A stretch of 64,000 nt of DNA from Desulfobacteraceae bacterium Eth-SRB1 (GTDB lineage Bacteria; Desulfobacterota; Desulfobacteria; Desulfobacterales; ETH-SRB1). Under the pieces are notes generated by a model. The model worked only from the letters and a program-made list of their open reading frames with translations, did not search any database and was not told where the DNA came from. Of this stretch, positions 90 to 13,602 are shown piece after piece. How positions within the stretch are numbered: position 1 is the stretch's first letter; every line of letters starts with the position of its first letter. The DNA is taken from positions 62,001 to 126,000 of the forward strand of contig RPGP01000001.1 of NCBI GenBank assembly GCA_004193555.1. The letters run 5' to 3'. A program made the position numbers and the translations under genes.

Positions 90-1673
90 ATGTCAAAACT
101 TTTACCGCCAAAACTTTTATTAATCGATGATGAAGAGGGTATTAGAAAACTTCTTAGCATATCTCTTAAAAGCGATGGATATGATGTGGTAACCGCTGAG
201 AATGGAGAACAGGGCCTTAATCTATTTCAAAAAGAATTATTTTCAATAGTGCTGACCGATATAAAGATGCCGGGGATGGACGGCATACAGGTATTAAAGG
301 AGATAAAAAAAATTAATCCGGATACAGAGGTGATTGTCATTACCGGTCACGGCGATATGGAATCAGCCGTTCAATCGCTTCATCTCGGAGCATCTGATTT
401 CATTAACAAGCCGGTGAGTGATCATATCCTTTCAGTTGCCCTGGAAAGGGCCGAGGAACGGCTGAAAACAAAAAAGATATTGAATAAGTATGCCAATGAA
501 CTGTGGAACATGGTAAAGGAGAAAACCGAAGAGATAAAGAGAAGGTATGAATTTGAGGACAAGCTTATACGACGATCGATTGACGGAATTATTGCTACTG
601 ACAGGGAAGGCAATATTATAGTATTTAACCGGGCTGCGGAAAGGCTTTTTGGATATACCGAGGATGAGGTCAAAAGCGGAAAGAAGGCTGATGACCTTTA
701 TCCTGAAGCGATAATGCACAAAATTTCCGATATTTTTTCGGGCAAGACACATGAAGCGGATGTTATCTTTGCTGGACAGGATACGTTTTTACAGGCAAAA
801 AACGGTAAGTCAGTACCGGTTAGATTTTCAGGCGCAATACTCTATGAAGGTGACAGGGCAATAGGCAGTGTCGGTTTTTTTCAGGATCTTAGAGAAATTA
901 AACGATTGCAAAAGGAATTAATCCAGTCAGAAAGATTGGCGGCCGTTGGGCAGACAGTGGCCGGTCTTGCACATGGCATAAAAAATATTTTAAATGGCTT
1001 AAAGGGGGGAGTCTATATAGTTAACAACGCTCTCAAAAAGTCGTCTGATAGTCTTGCCGGTGCGAGCGTAGAAAAGGGGGAGCCGGAAAGCAAACTAAGA
1101 ACAGGTTGGGACATGGTGGAAAGAAATATTCACAGAGTCTCAGATCTGGTTTTGGATCTTCTCAGTTATTCAAAGGAACGTGAGCCGGAATATGAAAAAT
1201 ATGATCCGAATATTATTGTGGATGAAGTCTGCGCTCTTATGGAGTCAAAGGCCAAGAAAAATGATGTTACACTGATAAAAAGTTTAGATAAGGAAACAGG
1301 CGAGGTTTACCTTGATCCAAAAGGGATACATAACTGTCTTCTCAATCTGGTTTCAAATGCGATTGACGCCTGCATTTTTGATCCTGATTCAGGGAAAGAC
1401 TGGCAGGTAAAGGTTGAGGTGCATGCTGACAGGGAGGGCGGTGTGATTTATGAGGTTATTGATAATGGTTGCGGCATGGATCATGAGGTTAAAGACAGGA
1501 TTTTTACCGAATTTTTCAGCACAAAGGGAAATCGTGGCACAGGCCTTGGGCTGCTTGTCTCTCAAAAGGTCATTCATGAGCATAAAGGAACCATGGATGT
1601 GGAATCGGAACCAGGCAAAGGCACAAGGTTTTCAATCAGGCTTCCGAAACAGGAATTCACAGAGAAAAAATAA
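90..1673 (+). CDS. Hybrid receiver-PAS-histidine kinase
   Basis: N-terminal receiver (LLIDDEEGIR..LTDIKMPGMDG), PAS domain, HATPase motifs (NLVSNAIDA, DNGCGM, GTGLGL). Confidence 0.93.
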   Translation: MSKLLPPKLLLIDDEEGIRKLLSISLKSDGYDVVTAENGEQGLNLFQKELFSIVLTDIKMPGMDGIQVLKEIKKINPDTEVIVITGHGDMESAVQSLHLGASDFINKPVSDHILSVALERAEERLKTKKILNKYANELWNMVKEKTEEIKRRYEFEDKLIRRSIDGIIATDREGNIIVFNRAAERLFGYTEDEVKSGKKADDLYPEAIMHKISDIFSGKTHEADVIFAGQDTFLQAKNGKSVPVRFSGAILYEGDRAIGSVGFFQDLREIKRLQKELIQSERLAAVGQTVAGLAHGIKNILNGLKGGVYIVNNALKKSSDSLAGASVEKGEPESKLRTGWDMVERNIHRVSDLVLDLLSYSKEREPEYEKYDPNIIVDEVCALMESKAKKNDVTLIKSLDKETGEVYLDPKGIHNCLLNLVSNAIDACIFDPDSGKDWQVKVEVHADREGGVIYEVIDNGCGMDHEVKDRIFTEFFSTKGNRGTGLGLLVSQKVIHEHKGTMDVESEPGKGTRFSIRLPKQEFTEKK

Positions 1674-1785: not shown

Positions 1786-2175
1786 ATGGGTAAAAAGGTT
1801 CTGATTGTTGATGATGATGCTGATATAAGAACATTTGCATCAAGCGTTATAGAAAACAGCGGCTATACGCCAATAATCGCATCAAATGGCGAAGAAGGTA
1901 TTGACAAAATTAGAGAAGAAAAACCGGACGCAATTATATTAGATATCTTAATGCCTAAAGAAAGCGGTATTAAGATGTATAGGGAAGTCAAAACAACCCC
2001 CGAGTTTAGCGCTATTCCGGTGATAATACTTTCCGGGATAGCTCAAAGAACCTTTATCCGTTCTCAAAAGGCGCTTGCAGAGGATGGTGAAGCCGTACCG
2101 GAACCGGAAGTCTATCTTGAAAAACCGGTTGAGCCGGAAGAACTGGCGGCAACTTTAAAGAAGTTTTTGTCCTGA
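1786..2175 (+). CDS. Single-domain response regulator (CheY-like)
   Basis: VLIVDDDADIR, AIILDILMP, VYLEKPV; RBS AAAGGAGGAG. Confidence 0.93.
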   Translation: MGKKVLIVDDDADIRTFASSVIENSGYTPIIASNGEEGIDKIREEKPDAIILDILMPKESGIKMYREVKTTPEFSAIPVIILSGIAQRTFIRSQKALAEDGEAVPEPEVYLEKPVEPEELAATLKKFLS

Positions 2176-2251: not shown

Positions 2252-3148
2252 TCAGGGCACCAGCAGTGTTGGAAATTCAGATGTTTCTGTTATTTCCTGA
2301 GATATGCCGCCAAGCCATCGTGCCCGCCAGGCCCCTTTTCCCGTTGCACCCATGACAATCATAGTGGCATTATGTTCACGTGCGGCAGTTTCAATCTGTG
2401 AGACCACGTCACCCATATAAAGATGAAAATCCGCTTCAAGCCCTTCATCTTCAAAAGTTATACAGATATCTTCCAGCCTTTTTTTGTTTTCCTTTTGAAT
2501 TTTCATAAGGTCATTTTTTGATTTACCCTTTACAACATCCTCACCTACAACATGTACCACCACTACTTTTTTCACAGCCTTTTTTAAATCTATTATCTGT
2601 TCCAATGCCCTTTCGCATGGAGATGACCAGTCTGTTACAAAAAGAGGTGTATCAAAGGGCTTATTGTTAACCTTGCCTGACGGCAGCATGTATTTATGTA
2701 CCAGCACAGGAGTTTTTGACCGCCGGAGAAGTTCCATTGTTGTTGAACTTGCAAACAGTTTTTCTAATTTTGTTCTTTTACAGGCTTCTGTTACAATGAG
2801 ATCTACCCCTTCTGTTTCAGCCGTTGAAAGAATTTTTGGGAGAGGGTCTCCAACAACCACATAGGCGCCGCATTCCATCCCTTTTTCGTAGATATTTTCA
2901 GCCCAATCAATAAAACGCACATCCGCCATCTGTTTTAATCTGACATCTTCCTCTTTAAGGTAGCCCGCTCCGCGATGCATGGCAACTGCTTCTCTGTTTA
3001 TTACATGAAGAAAAACCACATGATCAAGACCGGCCTTTCTTAGCTCCATCAATGATTCCAGAGCATCAAACCACAGTTCATCAAAGTTGGTTACAAACAG
3101 CATCTTTTTAAATTTCATAAAACTTCCTCCTAAACTTATCAATCCCAT
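2252..3148 (-). CDS. Tandem-domain universal stress protein
   Basis: Two Usp domains; MGATGKGAWRARWLGG ATP-binding-type motif; real start may be internal MKFKKMLFVTNF. Confidence 0.9.
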   Translation of the reverse strand: MGLISLGGSFMKFKKMLFVTNFDELWFDALESLMELRKAGLDHVVFLHVINREAVAMHRGAGYLKEEDVRLKQMADVRFIDWAENIYEKGMECGAYVVVGDPLPKILSTAETEGVDLIVTEACKRTKLEKLFASSTTMELLRRSKTPVLVHKYMLPSGKVNNKPFDTPLFVTDWSSPCERALEQIIDLKKAVKKVVVVHVVGEDVVKGKSKNDLMKIQKENKKRLEDICITFEDEGLEADFHLYMGDVVSQIETAAREHNATMIVMGATGKGAWRARWLGGISQEITETSEFPTLLVP

Positions 3149-3624
3149 CCTATAAATTTAGTAAAGATAATCAGAAAGTGTTTAGATTGTCAAGAATTTA
3201 TTGTGTATCTGAGTATATGTATTGTACGGTCAAATAAATAGTATGAGGACGATAATAGAAACAGAAAAAGACCGGATAAAATTTTACTGTACGGCATTAC
3301 GGCAAGAAGTGTTCATTGTTTGTACACAAAATTATGTAAAGATATAAATATGTTCCTAAAATATAGCTATTATCTGTCCAGTTATTGAACATATTATGTT
3401 CGGGGTTATTGCTTGCTCATTATTTACGATTTAATAAATATCTGAAAAAACAGGTAGATAGGCATGATAACAGAAAAGGCATAAATATTGCAGTAAAGTA
3501 ATCCTAATTTTTGTAGTTAATGATCGATAAGGTCGGTATAGATTCTTGAAGCAGGCATTAAATGTATTTATGAATTTTCGTTGTTGACCTTTATGGCTAT
3601 GATATAAGGGGAGACCTTTGAAAT

Positions 3625-4398
3625 ATGGACGTAAAAAAAATTCTTTATGCTACAAATTTAAGTAAGCCCACCTTTCGTGTGTTTGATGGGTTGTCAGGTC
3701 TAAAAAGTCTTGGCTTGCAAGAGATCATTCTCCTTTCAAACAATGCGACTCTTGACCTGTTTGAGACATGGAAAAAAAGATTGGGTGATTTAGGGATAAA
3801 TGCAAGCATCAAAATTGATCCCGGCAACCTCTCCACAAGTGTTTTAAACACAATCCGGGGAAACAATATATCGCTTGTCATATTGCATTTAAATAAAAAA
3901 GAGGACCGGACCATCTTTGGTGGTTCAGCCCTGGGAAATATTATTAAAACAACCAATATTCCTGTCCTTGTTGTTGATAAGGACGAAAAAGGATTAAATT
4001 TTAGTTCTAAAGGAATGTTTGAACGTGTTTTGTTGCCGGCAGATTGGTCGCCGGAATATGAAAAGGCATTGCAATATATACTCGATCTTAAGGAATTAAT
4101 AAGCGAACTTGAACTTGTAAATGTAATATTTGAAAAATTAAGCCTGCGTGATGTGAAACAGATAACGGAAGATATGATTAATGCTCGTAAAATGTGCCTG
4201 AAACTTGGTGTTTCAACAGAATATCACATGTATGCGGGAGAGGTTAGTGAGGAGATCCTGCGAGCGGCGCATGAATATGAATCTACTATGATAATTATCG
4301 GCTCAATGCGCAGGCAAAAGTTTAAGGATATTTTTTCAGGCAGGCCTGCGTATAGAGTGATAGAAAAATCTCCGATACCTGTGTTGCTGGTTCCCTAA
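3625..4398 (+). CDS. Tandem-domain universal stress protein
   Basis: Usp fold motifs (KKILYATNLS, SPIPVLLVP); nucleotide-binding motif degenerate (IGSMRRQKFKDIFSG). Confidence 0.85.
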   Translation: MDVKKILYATNLSKPTFRVFDGLSGLKSLGLQEIILLSNNATLDLFETWKKRLGDLGINASIKIDPGNLSTSVLNTIRGNNISLVILHLNKKEDRTIFGGSALGNIIKTTNIPVLVVDKDEKGLNFSSKGMFERVLLPADWSPEYEKALQYILDLKELISELELVNVIFEKLSLRDVKQITEDMINARKMCLKLGVSTEYHMYAGEVSEEILRAAHEYESTMIIIGSMRRQKFKDIFSGRPAYRVIEKSPIPVLLVP

Positions 4399-4628: not shown

Positions 4629-5342
4629 ATGGAAGTAACAATACTGGTTCAGGCCACATATAAGTCCTTTCAGATGTTAGACGAGGCAAGAGATAAGGCT
4701 ACGCAGATATTGGATACTGCTGCGAGGCTGACATCTGAAACCCAGGCCCTGCATCGAAAAAGGATAGAGGCGATATTTACAGGTGCCAAACAAACAAAAG
4801 TTCAACTCAGCAGGTTTATTGCAACATTTATCATTTTGTTTGGTTTCTGGTTGTTCATGTCAGGACACTATGATGTATTTCATATCAGTATCGGAGTTCT
4901 TTGTTGCGCCGTAGTGTCGCATGTATCGCATAATCTCCTTTTTGCCAATCCAAGAGCCGGGGATATGCGTGTAATAGTTAAAAGATTTATTACATACATT
5001 CCATGGCTTTTATACCAGATTGTCCTGTCTAATTTCCACGTTGCCTATCTGGCTCTGGGCCCAAAAAGGTTGTTAGATCCAAAAATAATTAAGTTTAAAT
5101 CAAAACTGGAAAGTGACATCTCGATGGTTACGCTTGCTAATTCTATAACCCTAACCCCGGGGACTATTACAGTAGATGTTAAAGACGGAATATATTACGT
5201 GCACGCTGTGAGCAAAAAGGTTGCGGAAGATCTTATGACCGGTGAAATGGAAGACAGAATTGCCCATATTTTCATGGAAGCCGACCATGTGTATGTTCAG
5301 GATGTTTTCGATATGGCGCCTATCTTTGTAGAATTAAAGTAA
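4629..5342 (+). CDS. mnhE: Na+/H+ antiporter subunit E (MnhE/MrpE) with N-terminal extension
   Basis: MrpE core (IPWLLYQIVLSNFHVAYLAL, NSITLTPGTITVDV). Confidence 0.88.
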   Translation: MEVTILVQATYKSFQMLDEARDKATQILDTAARLTSETQALHRKRIEAIFTGAKQTKVQLSRFIATFIILFGFWLFMSGHYDVFHISIGVLCCAVVSHVSHNLLFANPRAGDMRVIVKRFITYIPWLLYQIVLSNFHVAYLALGPKRLLDPKIIKFKSKLESDISMVTLANSITLTPGTITVDVKDGIYYVHAVSKKVAEDLMTGEMEDRIAHIFMEADHVYVQDVFDMAPIFVELK

Positions 5343-5388: not shown

Positions 5389-5880
5389 ATGACAATCAAG
5401 CGCACAGTAAACATGACCAAACAATCGGATGATGTTATTGTTAAGACACTTTCCCGGCTGTTAATACCATTTATGCAGATTTATGCCCTGTATGTCATTG
5501 CGCACGGGCATTACAGCCCTGGAGGAGGGTTCCAGGGAGGAGTAATTTTAGGGGCAAGTTTAATTCTATTGGCAATAACTTATGGGCTGGATAATGCTTT
5601 GCGCATGATGTCAGAGAGATTAAACACCATTCTATGCAGCCTCGGAGTTTTTATATATGCCGGCATAGGGTTGTTGTGCATCATGTTAGGCGGTAATTAT
5701 CTGGATTATGGGGCGCTTGACAAAATCTTGCATGTTGACATAGCGCATGCAAGATCGCTCGGTATTCTTGGTATTGAGACCGGTGTAGGAATCGCTGTCA
5801 TGGCAGTTATGGCCTCGATTTTTTTAGATATATCTACCGGAGGGCTTCCTTCGACAAAAGAGCGGGATCAATCTGATTAA
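5389..5880 (+). CDS. mnhB: Na+/H+ antiporter subunit B (MnhB/MrpB)
   Basis: YVIAHGHYSPGGGFQGGVILG motif. Confidence 0.92.
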   Translation: MTIKRTVNMTKQSDDVIVKTLSRLLIPFMQIYALYVIAHGHYSPGGGFQGGVILGASLILLAITYGLDNALRMMSERLNTILCSLGVFIYAGIGLLCIMLGGNYLDYGALDKILHVDIAHARSLGILGIETGVGIAVMAVMASIFLDISTGGLPSTKERDQSD

Positions 5881-5896
5881 CATTTAAGGATTAAAC

Positions 5897-6835
5897 TTGA
5901 GAATACAGGACATTAATAAACGATCTGCAAAAATGAAGCAGGTCTATAATATGATATTGAATCTTGCTCCCACTGATGCCACGGTTTTGATTCGTGGTGA
6001 AGAAGGAACAGAAAAAGCATTGGTGGCACGATCTATTCATTTAAACAGCGCAAGAAAAAATCGCTTTTTTGATGTGTATAACTGTTCGGTTTATCCGCAG
6101 TTTATTGTTGAAAGCGGTCTTTTGGGTCATGAAACAGGCGCCTATGAAGGGGCGGTATCTCAGAAGAAAGGATGCCTGGAACTAAATAATGGCGGGACAG
6201 TATTTTTGAGTGAGATTGACAAAATATCTCCGTTGACCCAGATCAAACTTCAGAATTTTTTACAGGACGGGTCTATAAAAAGACTTGGAGGAAAAAAAAG
6301 TATTAAGATAGACGTCAGGATCATTGCCGCTGTTAATACTGATCTTGGGAAAGAGGTCGAAAGAGGAACTTTTAATGAAGAGTTTTCTTATATGCTGAAT
6401 GTAATTAATATACATTTACCTTCTTTAAGGGAGAGGAAAGATGATATCCCCCCTCTAATAGAATACTTTCTGGAAATGCTGAATGTAGAAACAGGGAAAA
6501 ATGTTAGAGGTGTTACATCCGATACGATGGAGATATTAATGGGCTATTCCTGGCCGGGCAATGTCAAGGAGTTGGAAAACTCGATACAACATGCCTTCCT
6601 TCTCGCAGAGGGTGCAGTAATTGAGCGTGAACTTCTGCCTTCCCGCATCTTACATGAAGTGTTAACAGAAAAAGACGAAGGGATAACCTCTTTTGAGGAA
6701 AATGAAAAAAGATTTCTTATGAAAATTCTGCAGGAGTGTAACTGGAATAAATTACAGGTTGCAAAACAGCTCAATGTGAGCCGGAGCACATTATATTCAA
6801 AACTTAAAAAATATAACTTAACGTCAAAACAATAA
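5897..6835 (+). CDS. Degenerate sigma-54 activator-like AAA+ regulator with Fis-type HTH
   Basis: TTG start; bEBP fold preserved (GHETGAYEGA, WPGNVKELEN, C-terminal VAKQLNVSRSTLYSKLKKY) but catalytic motifs substituted. Confidence 0.88.
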   Translation: MRIQDINKRSAKMKQVYNMILNLAPTDATVLIRGEEGTEKALVARSIHLNSARKNRFFDVYNCSVYPQFIVESGLLGHETGAYEGAVSQKKGCLELNNGGTVFLSEIDKISPLTQIKLQNFLQDGSIKRLGGKKSIKIDVRIIAAVNTDLGKEVERGTFNEEFSYMLNVINIHLPSLRERKDDIPPLIEYFLEMLNVETGKNVRGVTSDTMEILMGYSWPGNVKELENSIQHAFLLAEGAVIERELLPSRILHEVLTEKDEGITSFEENEKRFLMKILQECNWNKLQVAKQLNVSRSTLYSKLKKYNLTSKQ

Positions 6836-6922
6836 GTTGGCTGATAAGTATGTCGCGGAATTTCTACAAAGTAGTATGGTGAAAAGAAATTAAAATTGGC
6901 AGCGCCAAAGGCGCTTTCCTTA

Positions 6923-6970
6923 ACTTTAGGCACTTTAATATACTTTAGCTCACTTTAGGCACTTATATTC
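6923..6970 (+). promoter_or_regulatory. Phased array of ACTTTA units, candidate regulator-binding site
   Basis: ACTTTAGGC/ACTTTAATAT/ACTTTAGCTC/ACTTTAGGC/ACTTATATTC beginning at 6923, 6932, 6942, 6952, 6961. Confidence 0.45.
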
Positions 6971-7003
6971 GCACCGAAGGTGCGCTAATCTGGGAGCAGC
7001 GAT

Positions 7004-7270
7004 ATGGAAAATTTTTATCTTGGTGTGAGCATTCTCCTTTGCTTGCTTGTTTTAATTTGTCTTTATCGGGTGGTATTCGGGCCGACTATTATTGACCGGA
7101 TTGTAAGTGTTGGAGCAATCGGCACAAAAACATTAATAGTCCTGGCGCTCATGGGTTTTATTTACGATAGGATAGAAATGTTCATTGATATCATCATGGT
7201 TTACGCTCTTCTGAACTTTATCGGGACCCTGGCGGCAGCAAAGTACTTTGAAGGGAGAGGTGAAATTTGA
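7004..7270 (+). CDS. mnhF: Na+/H+ antiporter subunit F (MnhF/MrpF)
   Basis: RVVFGPTIIDRIVSVGAIGTK motif, size. Confidence 0.9.
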   Translation: MENFYLGVSILLCLLVLICLYRVVFGPTIIDRIVSVGAIGTKTLIVLALMGFIYDRIEMFIDIIMVYALLNFIGTLAAAKYFEGRGEI

Positions 7271-7593
7271 TGGAAGTTATTAAAATATTATCCATTGTGC
7301 TGATTTTGATAGGATGTTTCTTTTTCACTACCGGCACAATCGGCCTGATACGTTTCCCGGACTTTTATGCCAGGATGCATGCCACCGGAAAAGGAGACAC
7401 CCTTGCAGTGCTTATATGTCTTATCGGTCTTGCATTATACCATACCTTTCATCACGGAGCTGTTTTAGATGGGATTAAGTTAGTCTTTATCGCTGTCTTT
7501 ATGTTTATGGCCAATCCTACGGCGACCCATGCAATTTCCAGGGCCGCTTTCCGGTGTGGCGTTAAACCATGGACCAGGGAGGAAAACAAATGA
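7267..7593 (+). CDS. mnhG: Na+/H+ antiporter subunit G (MnhG/MrpG)
   Basis: GTIGLIRFPDFYARMHATGKGDTLA. Confidence 0.93.
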   Translation: MMEVIKILSIVLILIGCFFFTTGTIGLIRFPDFYARMHATGKGDTLAVLICLIGLALYHTFHHGAVLDGIKLVFIAVFMFMANPTATHAISRAAFRCGVKPWTREENK

Positions 7594-7835
7594 TCTGGCA
7601 ACTCGATCTTATTTTATGTATTTTTATTGTTATCTGTGCAGTTGCAGCTATTACTATTAAGGATCTTCTGGCCGCTGTTATTATTTTAGGCGCTTACAGC
7701 TTCTTTATGTGTATTCTCTATACTGGGATGGGAGCGGTGGATGTCGCCTTTACCGAGGCCTCCGTAAGCGCTGGAGTTGGAACAGTATTGTTTGTCGCGG
7801 CTGTCAGTAAAACAAAAAGGAGGTCAAAGGATTGA
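7569..7835 (+). CDS. MbhD/DUF4040-type subunit (split MrpA C-terminal piece)
   Basis: AVIILGAYSFFMCILYTGMGAVDVAFTEASVSAGVGTVLFVAA. Confidence 0.85.
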   Translation: MDQGGKQMIWQLDLILCIFIVICAVAAITIKDLLAAVIILGAYSFFMCILYTGMGAVDVAFTEASVSAGVGTVLFVAAVSKTKRRSKD

Positions 7836-8116
7836 AGGTTATTGCAATAGCTATAATACTTTTGACAGGGGGATTGCTTATATACGGTGTTGAGGATATG
7901 CCGGGTTGGGGTGATCCTGATTCTCCGGCCAGCAGCCATGTTTCACCGAAGTATATAAAGGAAGCTTTGGGAAAAACAGCCACACCGAATATGGTTACCG
8001 CCGTTCTGGGGGATTACAGGGGATACGATACCATGGGTGAGACAGCGGTTATTTTTACTGCAGGGATCGGCTGTATCCTGATGTTAAGAAAAAAACGCAA
8101 GGGAGAAGGAGACTGA
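7832..8116 (+). CDS. MbhE-type subunit (split MrpA C-terminal piece)
   Basis: GDPDSPASSHVSPKYI..NMVTAVLGDYRGYDTMGETAVIFTAGI. Confidence 0.85.
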   Translation: MKVIAIAIILLTGGLLIYGVEDMPGWGDPDSPASSHVSPKYIKEALGKTATPNMVTAVLGDYRGYDTMGETAVIFTAGIGCILMLRKKRKGEGD

Positions 8117-8117
8117 T

Positions 8118-8525
8118 ATGCTTGAGTACATTATCAGTAAATACAACTTCTGGGTGTATGTCATTTTGCTGCTGATCGGGCTTTATGCAATGGTGGGCAA
8201 GAAAAATCTGGTTAAGAAGCTGATCGGGATGAATATATTTCAGTCTGCTGTGATTCTTTTTTACGTTTCCATCGGGGTAAAGAAGGGCGGGGCAACAGTG
8301 CCGATATTCTTAGGGAATGCTCATGCGGCGCACGGGCATGGACACGCTATTATCGATGTTGCAAGTTATATTAATCCTCTTCCTCATGTGCTGATGCTTA
8401 CGGCAATAGTTGTTTCAATTGCCACAACAGGTGTTGCCCTTGCGGTGCTTATCCTGATTTTCAGGAGATATAAGACCTTGGAGCTTGACGAAATTATGAA
8501 AATAAGAAAAGAAACGGGAGTCTAA
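8118..8525 (+). CDS. mnhC: NuoK/MrpC-like antiporter subunit C
   Basis: NuoK-like fold; NPLPHVLMLTAIVVSIATTGVALAVLI. Confidence 0.9.
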   Translation: MLEYIISKYNFWVYVILLLIGLYAMVGKKNLVKKLIGMNIFQSAVILFYVSIGVKKGGATVPIFLGNAHAAHGHGHAIIDVASYINPLPHVLMLTAIVVSIATTGVALAVLILIFRRYKTLELDEIMKIRKETGV

Positions 8526-8527
8526 AT

Positions 8528-10021
8528 ATGGCAACACATTTTGCTGCTCTTATAATAGTCATTCCTTTAATAGCCGCTCTCTTTGTGCCGGTTATTGGAT
8601 GGTGGAAAAAAGGATTGTGCTACCCATGGGTTGTTGCCGTTCTCCTTGTTCCACTTATATCATCTATTGGCGTTTTAAATAGAGTAATAGAGAGCGGGCC
8701 ATTTTCATATTATCTCGGAGGGTGGGCTCCTCCGTGGGGTATCGAGTATGCGATAGATTATCTCAATGCATTTGTTCTGGTAATAATATCGGTTATAAGT
8801 CTGATTGTTTCCATATATTCCAAAAAGAGCGTTGAAAAGGAAATACCTGAAAAGGTTGTTCCGTTCTACACACTTTTTCTGCTTCTTGTTACAGGCCTTT
8901 TAGGGATAGTTGTAACAGGAGATCTTTTCAATGTGTTTGTATTTTTAGAAATCGCTTCTCTTTCATGTTACGCCCTCATAGCTATAGGCAGGGATGGAGC
9001 TCCCTTAGCCACGTTTCGATATATCATAATGGGCACAATCGGAGCCTCGTTTTATCTTCTTGGCGTAGGTTACCTGTATATTATTACCGGCTCGCTGAAT
9101 ATGCTGGACGTGGCCCGGCTATTGCCCGAATTATATCATTCCAGGGTTGTGTTGACGGCAGGCATCTTTATGATAGTTGGCATCGGCCTGAAGATGGCGC
9201 TTTATCCACTGCATGCATGGGCTCCAAATGCTTATGCAGATGCGCCATCAACTGTCAGCGGTCTTATCGCGCCCTTAATGACCAAGGTGGCGGCATACAT
9301 GATGATACGTGTTATGTTTACTGTCTTTAAGCCCGTTTTCTTTATAGAGGTGATTCCTGTGACAAGCATACTCACCTGGATGGCGGCTGTTGCCATAATC
9401 ATCGGTTCAATATATGCCATTGCCCAGACTGACCTAAAGAAGATGCTGTCTTACTCAGTTGTGGCGCAGATCGGATATATTGCTTTAGGAATAGGGCTGG
9501 CAAACAAATCCGGTCTTACCGGCGCTGTACTCCACATTCTAAATGAAGCTTTTACAAAAGGCTGTGTGTTTCTGGTCGCAGGGGCTATCGTCTATAAAAT
9601 GGGCGCCTGCAATATCAATGAATTTAAAGATTTATATAGAAAGATGCCGTTTACTATGTCAGCCTTTCTAATCGGCGCATTTTCCATGGTCGGCATACCT
9701 CCTACATGCGGTTTTTTCAGCAAGATATATCTGATCATGGGTGCAATTAGCGCCGACAAATGGATTTTTGTAGCTGTTCTGTTATTTAGCAGCGTTCTCA
9801 ATGTAGTCTATTTCTTTAGAGTAATACAGATTGCGACATTTGAAACACCGATGCCGGACTATGGCCGTGATAAGGCTTATGAGGCGGTTTACATGGATGA
9901 AGTTCCTTTAAGTATGCTGATCCCCATACAGATTATGGCTGCAGGGATACTGTTATCCGGTATTTTCAGCTCAAAGATTATATCAACGGTAATTCAATTT
10001 GTGATACCTGTAGGTTTTTAG
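8528..10021 (+). CDS. mnhD: MrpD-like proton-translocating antiporter subunit
   Basis: Proton_antipo_M family motifs (GIGLKMALYPLHAWAPNAYADAPSTVSGL, KKMLSYSVVAQIGY). Confidence 0.92.
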   Translation: MATHFAALIIVIPLIAALFVPVIGWWKKGLCYPWVVAVLLVPLISSIGVLNRVIESGPFSYYLGGWAPPWGIEYAIDYLNAFVLVIISVISLIVSIYSKKSVEKEIPEKVVPFYTLFLLLVTGLLGIVVTGDLFNVFVFLEIASLSCYALIAIGRDGAPLATFRYIIMGTIGASFYLLGVGYLYIITGSLNMLDVARLLPELYHSRVVLTAGIFMIVGIGLKMALYPLHAWAPNAYADAPSTVSGLIAPLMTKVAAYMMIRVMFTVFKPVFFIEVIPVTSILTWMAAVAIIIGSIYAIAQTDLKKMLSYSVVAQIGYIALGIGLANKSGLTGAVLHILNEAFTKGCVFLVAGAIVYKMGACNINEFKDLYRKMPFTMSAFLIGAFSMVGIPPTCGFFSKIYLIMGAISADKWIFVAVLLFSSVLNVVYFFRVIQIATFETPMPDYGRDKAYEAVYMDEVPLSMLIPIQIMAAGILLSGIFSSKIISTVIQFVIPVGF

Positions 10022-10036
10022 TTAGGAGGTTTTTAC

Positions 10037-12067
10037 ATGGATACGTTGACAATAGCATGGTTATGTGTGCTTTTCCCCTTTCTTGGTGTGATTTTCACCT
10101 TTTTGATGGCCAGGGTTCATCCCAGGCTCAGAAATGCTGCGGCTGTATTTTTTCCGTTTCTGTCCGCCCTGTGCAGCCTGAAGCTTTTAACCCGACTGTT
10201 TCATCCGGAAACGTTGCCTCTCGAAAGTTCTGTGAAGTGGATTGAGATACCTTTTGTAGTGGAATTCGGGGTGTTGGTAGATCCGCTCAGCATTATCCTG
10301 GCAGTTGTGGTTGCCGTCATAAGCTTTATTATTACCGTGTACTGCCTTGGCTATATGAAGGGAGATCCGGGGATAACCAGGTTTTTAATGATGGTAAACC
10401 TTTTTGTCGGCAGCATGCTCCTGCTGGTGCTTACTAATAATCTGGTTGTGCTTTTTGTTGGATGGAAACTGGTTGGTTTGTGCAGTTATGCTTTGATCGG
10501 TTATTATTACAGGGATGAAGAAAAATACTGGATAGGTGGGCCTGCGCCAACCAAGCTGGTTTCTCCAAGCCATTGCGGGTTAAAAGCATTGGTTGTAACA
10601 GGCGTGGGCGATCTTATTATGTTGGGCGGCATATTAATTATATTTTACTATGCCAAGACCTTTAATATCATGGAGCTTTACACAACGGCTTCTGTCTGGA
10701 TGCCGGAGATGGCTAAGACGCCGGGTATAATCATATTGACTACCGTGCTTCTTCTTGCAGGCCCTATTGGTAAATCAGCGCAGTTTCCCTTTCATGAATG
10801 GCTTCCGGAGGCCATGGCAGGCCCGGGCCCTGTTTCGGCTTTGATTCATGCGGCGACTATGGTTAAAAGCGGGGTTTATCTGGTCGCCAGGTTTATTCCC
10901 ATGTTTTATTACGGCTACTGGGTGGCCGGCATCAGTGAAGCTTCCGCATTTTTTACCATTGTAGCATGGGTAGGAGTTATTACGGCATTTGTCGCGGCAA
11001 CTCAGGGCCTGGTCGCCTTAGAGCTTAAAAAGGCTCTTGCGTTTTCCACTGTAAGCCAGATTGGCTACATGTGGATTGGTCTCGGTATGGCCGGCTTGAG
11101 CGGATCGGTATTGATAGGCGGAACCACATCAGGTATATTTCACCTTGTAAGCCATGCTGTGTTCAAGGCATGTCTCTTCCTGTGCGCCGGTTCTGTGATA
11201 CATTCCGCTCATTCAATTTACATGAACGATATGGGTTCAATGAGAAAGTATATGCCGCTGACCTGGATTTTTATGCTTATCGCTTCCGTATGTTTGATGG
11301 GGATTCCGCCCATGCCTGGTTTCTTCAGCAAGGATGCTATCTTACTTTCCGCTCTGGAGGCCCATCATCTGCCGATATTTATTCTTGCTGTAATTACCGT
11401 GGTTTTAACGGCATTTTACACAACCCGTATGGTCGGCATGGTGTTTTACGGCAAGGAGAGTGAGCAGATAAAACATATAAAGCGGGAAGGAGGACATATT
11501 CATGAGGCCTCCCCAACCATGTGGGGCGCATGCGGTATCCTGGCTGTAATTATTGTATTTCTTGGCCTGGTAGGGCCGCATGTAGAGCATCTTTTAAAAG
11601 AAGGGTTTAAGACCAACCTGGTCGGAACCCTTGCTTTGCCGGTTGCGCATGGCGGGGAACATCCGTTTAATTACCATCTGGTGGTTTCGGTGCTGTCGAT
11701 AGCCGCTATACTTTTGGGAGCAGTGCCCGCATATTTTATGTATATAGCGCAAAAATGGGATCCCAGGGCTATCCTGGACAGGTCATCAACTCTCCAGGTT
11801 TTTCATAAATTTTTCTGGAACAGATGGTTTATTGATGCTTTTTATTTAAAAGTTTTTGTGGACGGAATATTGAAGTTAGCCGACTTTGTGGCTTATACTG
11901 TTGAAGATGGGTTTGACAATTTCGTCCACAGGAAAATTCCGACTTTTATTACGCAGAGATGCCCTGCGGTGATGTTTAAACTGCGGACCGAGTCGGATGA
12001 TCTTTTGTATAATATATCCTATATTATTGTTATCTTTGTTTGCCTGCTGTTTGTGGTATTAAAATAA
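10037..12067 (+). CDS. NuoL/MrpA-like antiporter subunit
   Basis: GKSAQFPFHEWLPEAMAGPGPVSALIHAATMVKSGVYL; KKALAFSTVSQIGYM. Confidence 0.92.
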   Translation: MDTLTIAWLCVLFPFLGVIFTFLMARVHPRLRNAAAVFFPFLSALCSLKLLTRLFHPETLPLESSVKWIEIPFVVEFGVLVDPLSIILAVVVAVISFIITVYCLGYMKGDPGITRFLMMVNLFVGSMLLLVLTNNLVVLFVGWKLVGLCSYALIGYYYRDEEKYWIGGPAPTKLVSPSHCGLKALVVTGVGDLIMLGGILIIFYYAKTFNIMELYTTASVWMPEMAKTPGIIILTTVLLLAGPIGKSAQFPFHEWLPEAMAGPGPVSALIHAATMVKSGVYLVARFIPMFYYGYWVAGISEASAFFTIVAWVGVITAFVAATQGLVALELKKALAFSTVSQIGYMWIGLGMAGLSGSVLIGGTTSGIFHLVSHAVFKACLFLCAGSVIHSAHSIYMNDMGSMRKYMPLTWIFMLIASVCLMGIPPMPGFFSKDAILLSALEAHHLPIFILAVITVVLTAFYTTRMVGMVFYGKESEQIKHIKREGGHIHEASPTMWGACGILAVIIVFLGLVGPHVEHLLKEGFKTNLVGTLALPVAHGGEHPFNYHLVVSVLSIAAILLGAVPAYFMYIAQKWDPRAILDRSSTLQVFHKFFWNRWFIDAFYLKVFVDGILKLADFVAYTVEDGFDNFVHRKIPTFITQRCPAVMFKLRTESDDLLYNISYIIVIFVCLLFVVLK

Positions 12068-12096
12068 TTTCTTATGACATTACGGGGATAAAAGAA

Positions 12097-13602
12097 ATGT
12101 CTCATATTCTTTTGCAAATAATAATTGTTCCGCCGATTGCTTCTTTATTTATACTCTTGACCAGGCACCTGATAGGAAGAAAGGCCGGATGGATAGCAGG
12201 TTTCAGCCTTTTATATTCAACAGCGCTTCTAATTATGGCATGTGTAAGAGTCTATCATGGTGAAATAATTGTTGAAGAATATCCTTTTATTGATTCGGCA
12301 ATCACCTTTGGACTTCTTGGCGACGGGTTGAGCCTGCCGGTCGCGTTGATAATCAACGGCCTTTGCACTGCCCTTGCATTTTATGCAATACATTATATAG
12401 ATCACAGAATAGAGGCTATATACGGTGATGTGGATGAGCGCACATATTTAAACCACTACACACGATTTTATTCCATGTTCCTTGGTTTTCCTATGGGTTT
12501 TATGGGCGTATGCCTTGTAAAGAACTTGATAGCGATGTATTTTTTCCTGGAAGTGCTGCCCATTCCTCTATATTTTATTATGGCTACTTTTGGGTATGTT
12601 GACAGAGTAAGAGTGGCTATGATCTGTTTGATGTGGGCAGTTATCGGAGCAGCGTTTTTTCTTGCCGGATTTTTGATGGCTTATAGTCAGATCGGAAGTT
12701 TTAATATCGCCGATATGAATGCTCTTGCAGGAAATCCGATGACTTTCTGGATTATATTTGTGCTTCTTATTGCAATACTGATAAAAATGGCGGCTGTGCC
12801 TTTTCATGTTTGGATGCCATGGGTCCACGCGGAGCATCCCACATGTATCGCGGGTCTTCTCGCTGTTTATGCGAATATTGCGGCCTATGTATTGGTGCGA
12901 GTAATAGTTTTCCCGCTGCCCGCTGATTTTAAAGCATTTTCCATACCTCTAATGGTACTGGCTTTAATAACAATGGTATATGGTTCATTTTTGACGATGG
13001 GACAAACAGATGTAAAACGCTTTGCTGCCTGTTCAACAATAAGCCAGCTTGCATATTCGCTTCTTGGCATATCAGCTCTTACTATAGCGAGCATTGAGGG
13101 AGGAATGTTTTTCTTTTTGGGACACATTATGGGGAAAACTATTCTGTTTTCAACAGCAGGCATACTGGTTTATACAACAGGGACAAGGGATATGAGGGAG
13201 ATGGGCGGACTCGCACAGAAAATGCCGATAACAACAGCGCTCTGGATTATGGGTGCAATGATGCTTTCCGGTTTTCCGCCAATGTCCAGCTTTCCCGCAG
13301 AATGGGTTATGTTTACGGGCATATTTAAAACCGGAGTTCAGACCATGCCCATTGGGCTTATGGTGGCTATTTTCGGAGCCGGCGCAATTATACTGACGGT
13401 TGCCTATACATTCCGGTCAGTAAAGATTATATTTTTCGGACCATTGAATCCGGATTTGGCGAACGATAAAATCAAGGATCCACCTTTAACGATGAGTATT
13501 CCGCTTCTTATGATAGCAGCCGTATCAATCATACTGGGGGTGTGCCCTAAACTGGCTCTTAATCTTTTCAATTACGTGATTGCGGGGATACCGATTCCAT
13601 AG
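12097..13602 (+). CDS. NuoM/MrpD-like antiporter subunit (third large subunit)
   Basis: KMAAVPFHVWMPWVHAEHPTCIAGLLA; ORF opens at 12040 but ATG 12097 is the likelier start. Confidence 0.88.
   Translation: MSHILLQIIIVPPIASLFILLTRHLIGRKAGWIAGFSLLYSTALLIMACVRVYHGEIIVEEYPFIDSAITFGLLGDGLSLPVALIINGLCTALAFYAIHYIDHRIEAIYGDVDERTYLNHYTRFYSMFLGFPMGFMGVCLVKNLIAMYFFLEVLPIPLYFIMATFGYVDRVRVAMICLMWAVIGAAFFLAGFLMAYSQIGSFNIADMNALAGNPMTFWIIFVLLIAILIKMAAVPFHVWMPWVHAEHPTCIAGLLAVYANIAAYVLVRVIVFPLPADFKAFSIPLMVLALITMVYGSFLTMGQTDVKRFAACSTISQLAYSLLGISALTIASIEGGMFFFLGHIMGKTILFSTAGILVYTTGTRDMREMGGLAQKMPITTALWIMGAMMLSGFPPMSSFPAEWVMFTGIFKTGVQTMPIGLMVAIFGAGAIILTVAYTFRSVKIIFFGPLNPDLANDKIKDPPLTMSIPLLMIAAVSIILGVCPKLALNLFNYVIAGIPIP

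Follow-up and report, generated by a model that had tools for sequence, protein, structure and literature searches.

The Mrp sodium/proton antiporter operon of the window (the whole stretch of DNA analyzed, 64,000 nucleotides) hosts a gene for a protein built like a sigma54 activator (bEBP), in which the motor motifs are lost and the DNA-binding end is kept. bEBPs work as hexameric motors, and where dominant-negative subunits occur, they are usually a result of engineering. As judged from sequence comparisons, the reading that we lean toward is that this protein, here the pseudo-bEBP, is a dedicated pseudo-activator, acting as a feedback brake on an operon driven by its intact paralogue.

The pseudo-bEBP and its operon

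The genes considered, all but the last of which lie in the window, are the following.

90-1673 (+), receiver-PAS-histidine kinase hybrid of the conserved locus
1786-2175 (+), lone receiver of the same conserved locus
2252-3148 (-), usp1, divergent universal stress protein, adjoining the common regulatory region
3625-4398 (+), usp2, universal stress protein, heading the predicted sigma54 operon
4629-5342 (+), mnhE (Pfam)
5389-5880 (+), mnhB (Pfam)
5897-6835 (+), pseudo-bEBP, AAA+ plus lid plus Fis-type HTH, 312 aa, TTG start
7004-7270 (+), mrpF (Pfam)
7267-13602 (+), remaining Mrp/Mbh cluster: mrpG, mbhD, mbhE, mrpC, mrpD, mrpA/ND5-like, mrpD2
C1:57613-59508 (window about -4388 to -2493, outside it), intact paralogous activator, receiver-AAA+-HTH, 631 aa

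The initial annotation had described a TTG-started ORF between mnhB and mrpF without a sensory domain, and this was borne out. The start is preceded by an AAGGA Shine-Dalgarno sequence, and Pfam placed Sigma54_activat (PF00158) at residues 8 to 173 (7e-50), AAA_lid_14 (PF25601; 2.7e-25) and HTH_8 (PF02954) at residues 266 to 306 (9e-13), with no sensory or receiver domain, so that the protein begins at the AAA+ domain. All NCBIfam matches were well under their cut-offs. By sequence comparison, the closest solved structure was that of ZraR (1ojl), an AAA+-HTH fragment (E value, 4.5e-70). An AlphaFold model built from a 13-row alignment gave a pLDDT of 54 and was left out of the argument.

All the motif substitutions quoted in the initial annotation are real. 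Walker A, GESGSGKE in the intact paralogues, reads GEEGTEKA, with a Gly replaced by Glu and the Lys (K40) retained, and Walker B has changed from LFLDEI to VFLSEI, retaining the Glu (E106) and losing the Asp. The sigma54-contact loop GAFTGA has become GAYEGA, and the arginine-finger stretch FREDLYYRLNV reads FNEEFSYMLNV, the equivalents of finger residues R162 and R168 being N160 and M166. In sensor II, WPGNVREL is WPGNVKEL, the R now being K224, while the glutamate-switch Asn is retained. In PspF, the catalytic residues are R162, R168, D107, E108, and N64, and arginine fingers, Walker B, and the Asn switch are among the residues that hydrolysis needs (PMC12054792). Thus, the pseudo-bEBP has the AAA+ core, lid, and Fis-type HTH of a bEBP and departs from one in the GAFTGA loop, the Walker A and B catalytic residues, and the two trans-acting arginine fingers. 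That it could not alone be a classical sigma54 activator is supported at the level of these motifs. The genome has 17 bEBP matches, including the pseudo-bEBP, which is the sole degenerate one.

The stop codon of mnhB and the start of the pseudo-bEBP gene overlap (TTGA) in G006 and G004, which amounts to translational coupling. The gap between usp2 and mnhE is 231 bp here and 45 to 250 bp in relatives, and it contains a weak terminator-like match. We infer that usp2 and the genes up to and including mrp would be read as a single transcript.

Of the interpretation given in the initial annotation, the part that holds is that the protein is not a classical activator and that its pattern fits a repressor or a dominant-negative partner. 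The proposed action at 6840-7000 is not supported, because the gap there is filled by a high-copy repeat and shrinks to 20 to 124 bp in relatives; an operator in the 6836-7003 gap was ruled out on the same grounds. The repeat at 6944-6964, TTTAGCTCACTTTAGGCACTT, has 118 copies in the genome (at most two mismatches; control, 0). Its copies are often arranged in inverted pairs with a distance of about 84 bp, making up a MITE/REP-like family, one copy of which was inserted between the pseudo-bEBP gene and mrpF.

Intact paralogue, descent, and selection

The nearest homologue of the pseudo-bEBP in its own genome is the 631-aa activator, encoded about 9 kb upstream with all motifs intact. In the tree, the dead clade plus its deep branch (100/99) and the intact clade (100/99) were sisters, joined at 99/98; long-branch warnings touched other bEBPs. 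In seven genomes the locus has the same layout, with the intact activator, (cytochrome c), a histidine kinase, the receiver/PAS/kinase hybrid, the receiver, and divergent usp1 followed by usp2, mnhE, mnhB, the pseudo-bEBP gene, mrpF, mrpG, mbhD, mbhE, mrpC, and mrpD. The intact paralogue was present in 12 of the 13 genomes with a pseudo-bEBP. In G012 the dead gene was found alone (on a 10-kb contig) and in G005 the intact one alone (the contig ends at mnhE), absences that may be assembly gaps, since the genomes are mostly MAGs. Both activators are missing from five members of the window's family, four of which have MnhB in a differently ordered Mrp operon. In such family genomes without either activator (L091, L092, L093, and L094), the Mrp operon is of a second type, mnhE-F-G-mbhD-E-mnhB-C, in which MnhB is 51 to 57% identical and no usp2, enhancer, or EBP was seen.

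Two genes follow directly on the intact activator (L005:7506-10086). One encodes a cytochrome c554/c7-like protein, and the other encodes a PAS histidine kinase whose sensor region has a haem-type CxxCH motif. The presence of a cytochrome and a haem-type kinase at this position suggests that redox sensing may be involved.

Close orthologues of the pseudo-bEBP (78 to 88% identity) occur in 11 other genomes, so that the close clade numbers 12, and G011 has a deep orthologue (55 to 57% identity). These 13 genomes fall into two families of the order, f64 and that of the window, the latter with three genera. Among 390 sampled genomes of the class no other protein was close, E values separating the dead clade (at most 2e-160) from the intact paralogues (about 1e-118 to 1e-130) and all the rest (at least 1e-115). 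A contig scan also gave L014, L016, and L017; these are intact EBPs of full length and lie outside mrp loci.

The same type of losses was found in all 12 close orthologues, and the replacement residues GTEK and FNEE are themselves conserved. The Walker B Asp is Ser, Thr, or Cys in the dead clade and Asn in G011; the loop reads [GAD][AS][FY][ED]GA in the close orthologues, so that the GAFTGA Thr has become E or D, and G011 is without the whole loop. Starts are TTG or GTG. No frameshifts or stops were found in the 13 genomes across the two families, and pairwise dN/dS (nine genomes) was about 0.06 to 0.18, like that of the intact paralogue and mnhB. Intact orthologues in close relatives, which the initial annotation had named as the sign of a recent pseudogene, were searched for and not found, the losses being fixed in all 13 genomes; together with the dN/dS values, this rules out a recent pseudogene. 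By these comparisons, the pseudo-bEBP is evidently ancient and under selection.

Divergence was unevenly distributed along the protein. With 15 intact relatives from other families as the reference, mean identity in the AAA+ domain was 52% for the pseudo-bEBP, against 70% for the active paralogue, and was lower in 15 of 15 cases, whereas the HTH values were 55% and 54%, respectively. By this relative-rate test, the AAA+ domain is accelerated and the HTH is not; the Fis-type HTH, noted as intact in the initial annotation, is preserved. Only the motor has therefore degenerated. Within one genome, the dead and intact proteins are 52 to 57% identical in the AAA+ domain and 70 to 77% in the HTH (four pairs), while the HTH identity to other bEBPs of the window's genome is at most 38%. 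In its recognition helix, SRSTLYxKLKKY, the HTH follows the consensus of the subfamily. This pattern would be expected if the retained function were DNA recognition.

Promoter and enhancers upstream of usp2

Beyond what the initial annotation had covered, namely the pseudo-bEBP gene itself, the locus holds the intact paralogue and, upstream of usp2, a sigma54-type promoter with an enhancer pair. The predicted elements are the following.

3288-3304, third, degenerate enhancer-like site with counterparts in relatives, TGTACGGCATTACGGCA
3310-3326, predicted enhancer (UAS) 1, perfect TGTNCA-N5-TGNACA, TGTTCATTGTTTGTACA
3375-3391, predicted enhancer (UAS) 2, perfect match, 65 bp from UAS 1, TGTCCAGTTATTGAACA
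3477-3492 (+), predicted sigma54 -24/-12 promoter upstream of usp2, AGGCATAAATATTGCA

The usp2 loci of 12 genomes were compared, 11 of them with upstream sequence. Conservation is poor between usp1 and usp2 apart from a few blocks, which are the -24/-12-like AGGCAYgaATgTTGCa (with AGG, not TGG, as its -24 element), the TGTNCA-N5-TGNACA palindromes, and an AT-rich stretch between the two main palindromes. The sigma54-type site is near-constant in position in the 11 genomes, and the enhancers, with a pair spacing of 64 to 67 bp, lie about 100 and 165 to 170 bp upstream of it in most. The third site keeps 8 or 9 of the 10 consensus bases in G006, G013, G011, G004, and G003. Against shuffles, the sigma54-type site gave P values of about 0.03 or less except in G011, where it is weak (8.9/20; P, 0.09), and it was modest in G079 and G005 (11.9; P, 0.03); these scores use assumed weights, and the genomes compared are not independent. 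The enhancer pair gave P values of 0.016 or less except in G079 (0.08).

Perfect enhancer palindromes are rare, with only six in the 3.34-Mb genome, two of them in the usp1-usp2 region; with one mismatch allowed, the palindrome is near background (92 versus 70 in the control). One other perfect palindrome, C1:1138262-1138278 (L095), is intergenic, flanked by a Band-7/SPFH gene and one of NT5C type, with no sigma54-like site near it. The genome has rpoN. The enhancer-plus-promoter arrangement was absent from the four Mrp operons without EBPs, and sigma54-like matches at other places in the locus, such as within mrpD, were set aside as coding and unconserved. On the other strand, a TTGACA-18-TATCTT sequence upstream of usp1 (3164-3193, -) may be a sigma70 promoter facing the sigma54-type one; its -35 region is apparently conserved in four of seven aligned loci.

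An independent check used 16 loci of intact relatives from other families, most of which have the HTH SRSTLYxKLKKY. Palindromes of at least 9/10 occurred at 7 of 11,904 positions in the 700 bp that follow the activator gene and at 6 of 251,209 positions elsewhere (Fisher P, 5e-7), although L118 entered with a non-subfamily EBP beside the site, which slightly weakens the test. Behind these palindromes there is usually a strong sigma54-type site. The comparison supports TGTNCA-N5-TGNACA as the type of site that this HTH subfamily would bind.

Many Desulfobacterales-type families have a subfamily of EBPs, roughly 740 aa long, with paired TGT-N11-ACA enhancers downstream of their own gene. In L107, L109, L112, and L114, enhancer pairs 64 to 67 bp apart occur together with a strong sigma54-type site, and a multihaem-cytochrome-like gene, which has several CxxCH motifs (L090:3493-4338), is preceded by an enhancer and sigma54-type site of this kind beside the activator of G105.

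Feedback model and alternatives

Two elements that the proposed brake calls for were found together, namely an intact paralogue of near-identical HTH in the same locus and, at the sequence level, a sigma54-type promoter with enhancers of the paralogue's type. The intact activator would fire the promoter at 3477-3492 via the enhancers at 3310-3391 and turn on usp2-mnhE-mnhB, the pseudo-bEBP gene, and mrp. The pseudo-bEBP would derive from the AAA+-HTH part of the intact activator, or from a common ancestor, and would have lost ATP hydrolysis, the arginine fingers, and sigma54 contact during descent while keeping DNA recognition. As a product of the activated operon, it would occupy the same enhancers, enter the rings of the active protein, or both; lacking arginine fingers and the GAFTGA loop, it would poison activation there and so cap antiporter expression. 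It is likely that the dead and intact proteins share DNA sites and, given shared sites, fairly likely that the effect is negative; the sign is less sure because bEBP paralogues can coactivate (PMC9542535). More tentatively, as a proposition on which we are close to evenly divided, the pseudo-bEBP may be a natural, vertically conserved ATPase-dead EBP exerting dominant-negative feedback on a sigma54 promoter through mixed rings or enhancer occupancy. The initial annotation had also named a sigma70-type regulator; with an in-locus paralogue, a sigma54-type promoter, and enhancers within 3310-3492, the feedback role is the more specific proposal.

The closest published arrangement is that of Desulfovibrio vulgaris DVU2956 and DVU2960, in which an intact EBP, described as sensor-less, lies by a sigma54 operon that it controls and that encodes a second EBP with an altered GAFTGA (PMC4641369). 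There, however, DVU2956 is divergent and adjacent, and its target is not described as an Mrp operon, while DVU2960 is reported with a T-to-P change only (GAFPGA) (PMC4641369). DVU2960 did not bind the upstream region of its operon in EMSA (PMC4641369), which calls for caution about the brake model. Several D. vulgaris EBP motifs have TGT/ACA half-sites 9, 11, or 12 bp apart (PMC4641369), the distance here being 11. HrpR/HrpS and VnfA1/VnfA3 are likewise paralogous bEBPs with near-identical recognition helices (PMC9542535), but here one partner is catalytically dead by motif. ZraR and PspF have the same AAA+/lid/HTH_8 chain with working motifs, PspF also being without a sensory domain. A literature search largely confined to openly accessible papers gave no description of a pseudo-bEBP in Mrp operons; no paper linked Mrp with sigma54 and universal stress protein, and on naturally occurring bEBPs that are ATPase-deficient and dominant-negative only the VnfA paper was relevant.

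Two alternatives would keep the pseudo-bEBP functional without making it a brake. It might have a structural part in rings formed jointly with the intact paralogue, like HrpR/HrpS or VnfA1/VnfA3, raising enhancer occupancy or specificity and thus boosting activation in positive feedback. The AAA+ domain is under purifying selection rather than merely eroding, which makes an oligomeric role plausible, and in Azotobacter VnfA1 and VnfA3 bind the same promoters, probably hetero-oligomerize, and a paralogue can enhance activation (PMC9542535). We nevertheless consider this unlikely, given the loss of both arginine fingers, the Walker B Asp, and the GAFTGA Thr, which would deprive each mixed interface of a trans-acting finger, and given that the intact paralogue has its own HTH and all catalytic motifs. 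Somewhat more doubtful is a regulator that no longer works with sigma54 but at a sigma70 promoter, such as that of usp1 (3193-3164, -). GAFTGA-less bEBPs at sigma70 promoters are known, namely NtrC of Rhodobacter capsulatus and Caulobacter and VpsR of Vibrio cholerae, which have lost the contact loop and kept DNA binding (PMC10274813), and the TTGACA-type site of usp1 would suit such a role. Those proteins, however, keep a receiver with a conserved aspartate, unlike the pseudo-bEBP, which has also lost the arginine fingers and Walker B and whose predicted sites belong to a sigma54-type promoter. Moreover, the conserved sites hold enhancer position relative to the sigma54-type site, related intact activators pair the same type of site with sigma54-type sites, and a promoter scan of the usp1-usp2 region gave no more sites than shuffles.

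The two remaining readings are very improbable. A classical sigma54 activator with unusual yet working motifs would be consistent with the retained Walker A Lys, Walker B Glu, and glutamate-switch Asn, and some D. vulgaris EBPs with altered GAFTGA are predicted to be still functional (PMC4641369), but the fingers, the Walker B Asp, and the GAFTGA Thr (or the whole loop) have been lost together. A decaying, functionless duplicate, retained through its position inside an essential operon, would fit the loss of several canonical motifs and the TTG or GTG start; it is largely refuted by conservation, that is, by the low dN/dS, the frame kept intact in both families, the conserved motif replacements, and the unaccelerated HTH.

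If the feedback brake is true, this locus would provide a natural pseudo-subunit with a defined partner, promoter, and enhancers, in which the number of dead subunits tolerated per ring is directly testable, as is whether bacteria cap sigma54 output by pseudo-enzymes. Other EBPs that have altered motifs and are encoded inside operons, DVU2960 among them, would merit re-examination. The brake would also account for the control of the Mrp antiporter and universal-stress genes in a group of marine-type sulfate reducers.
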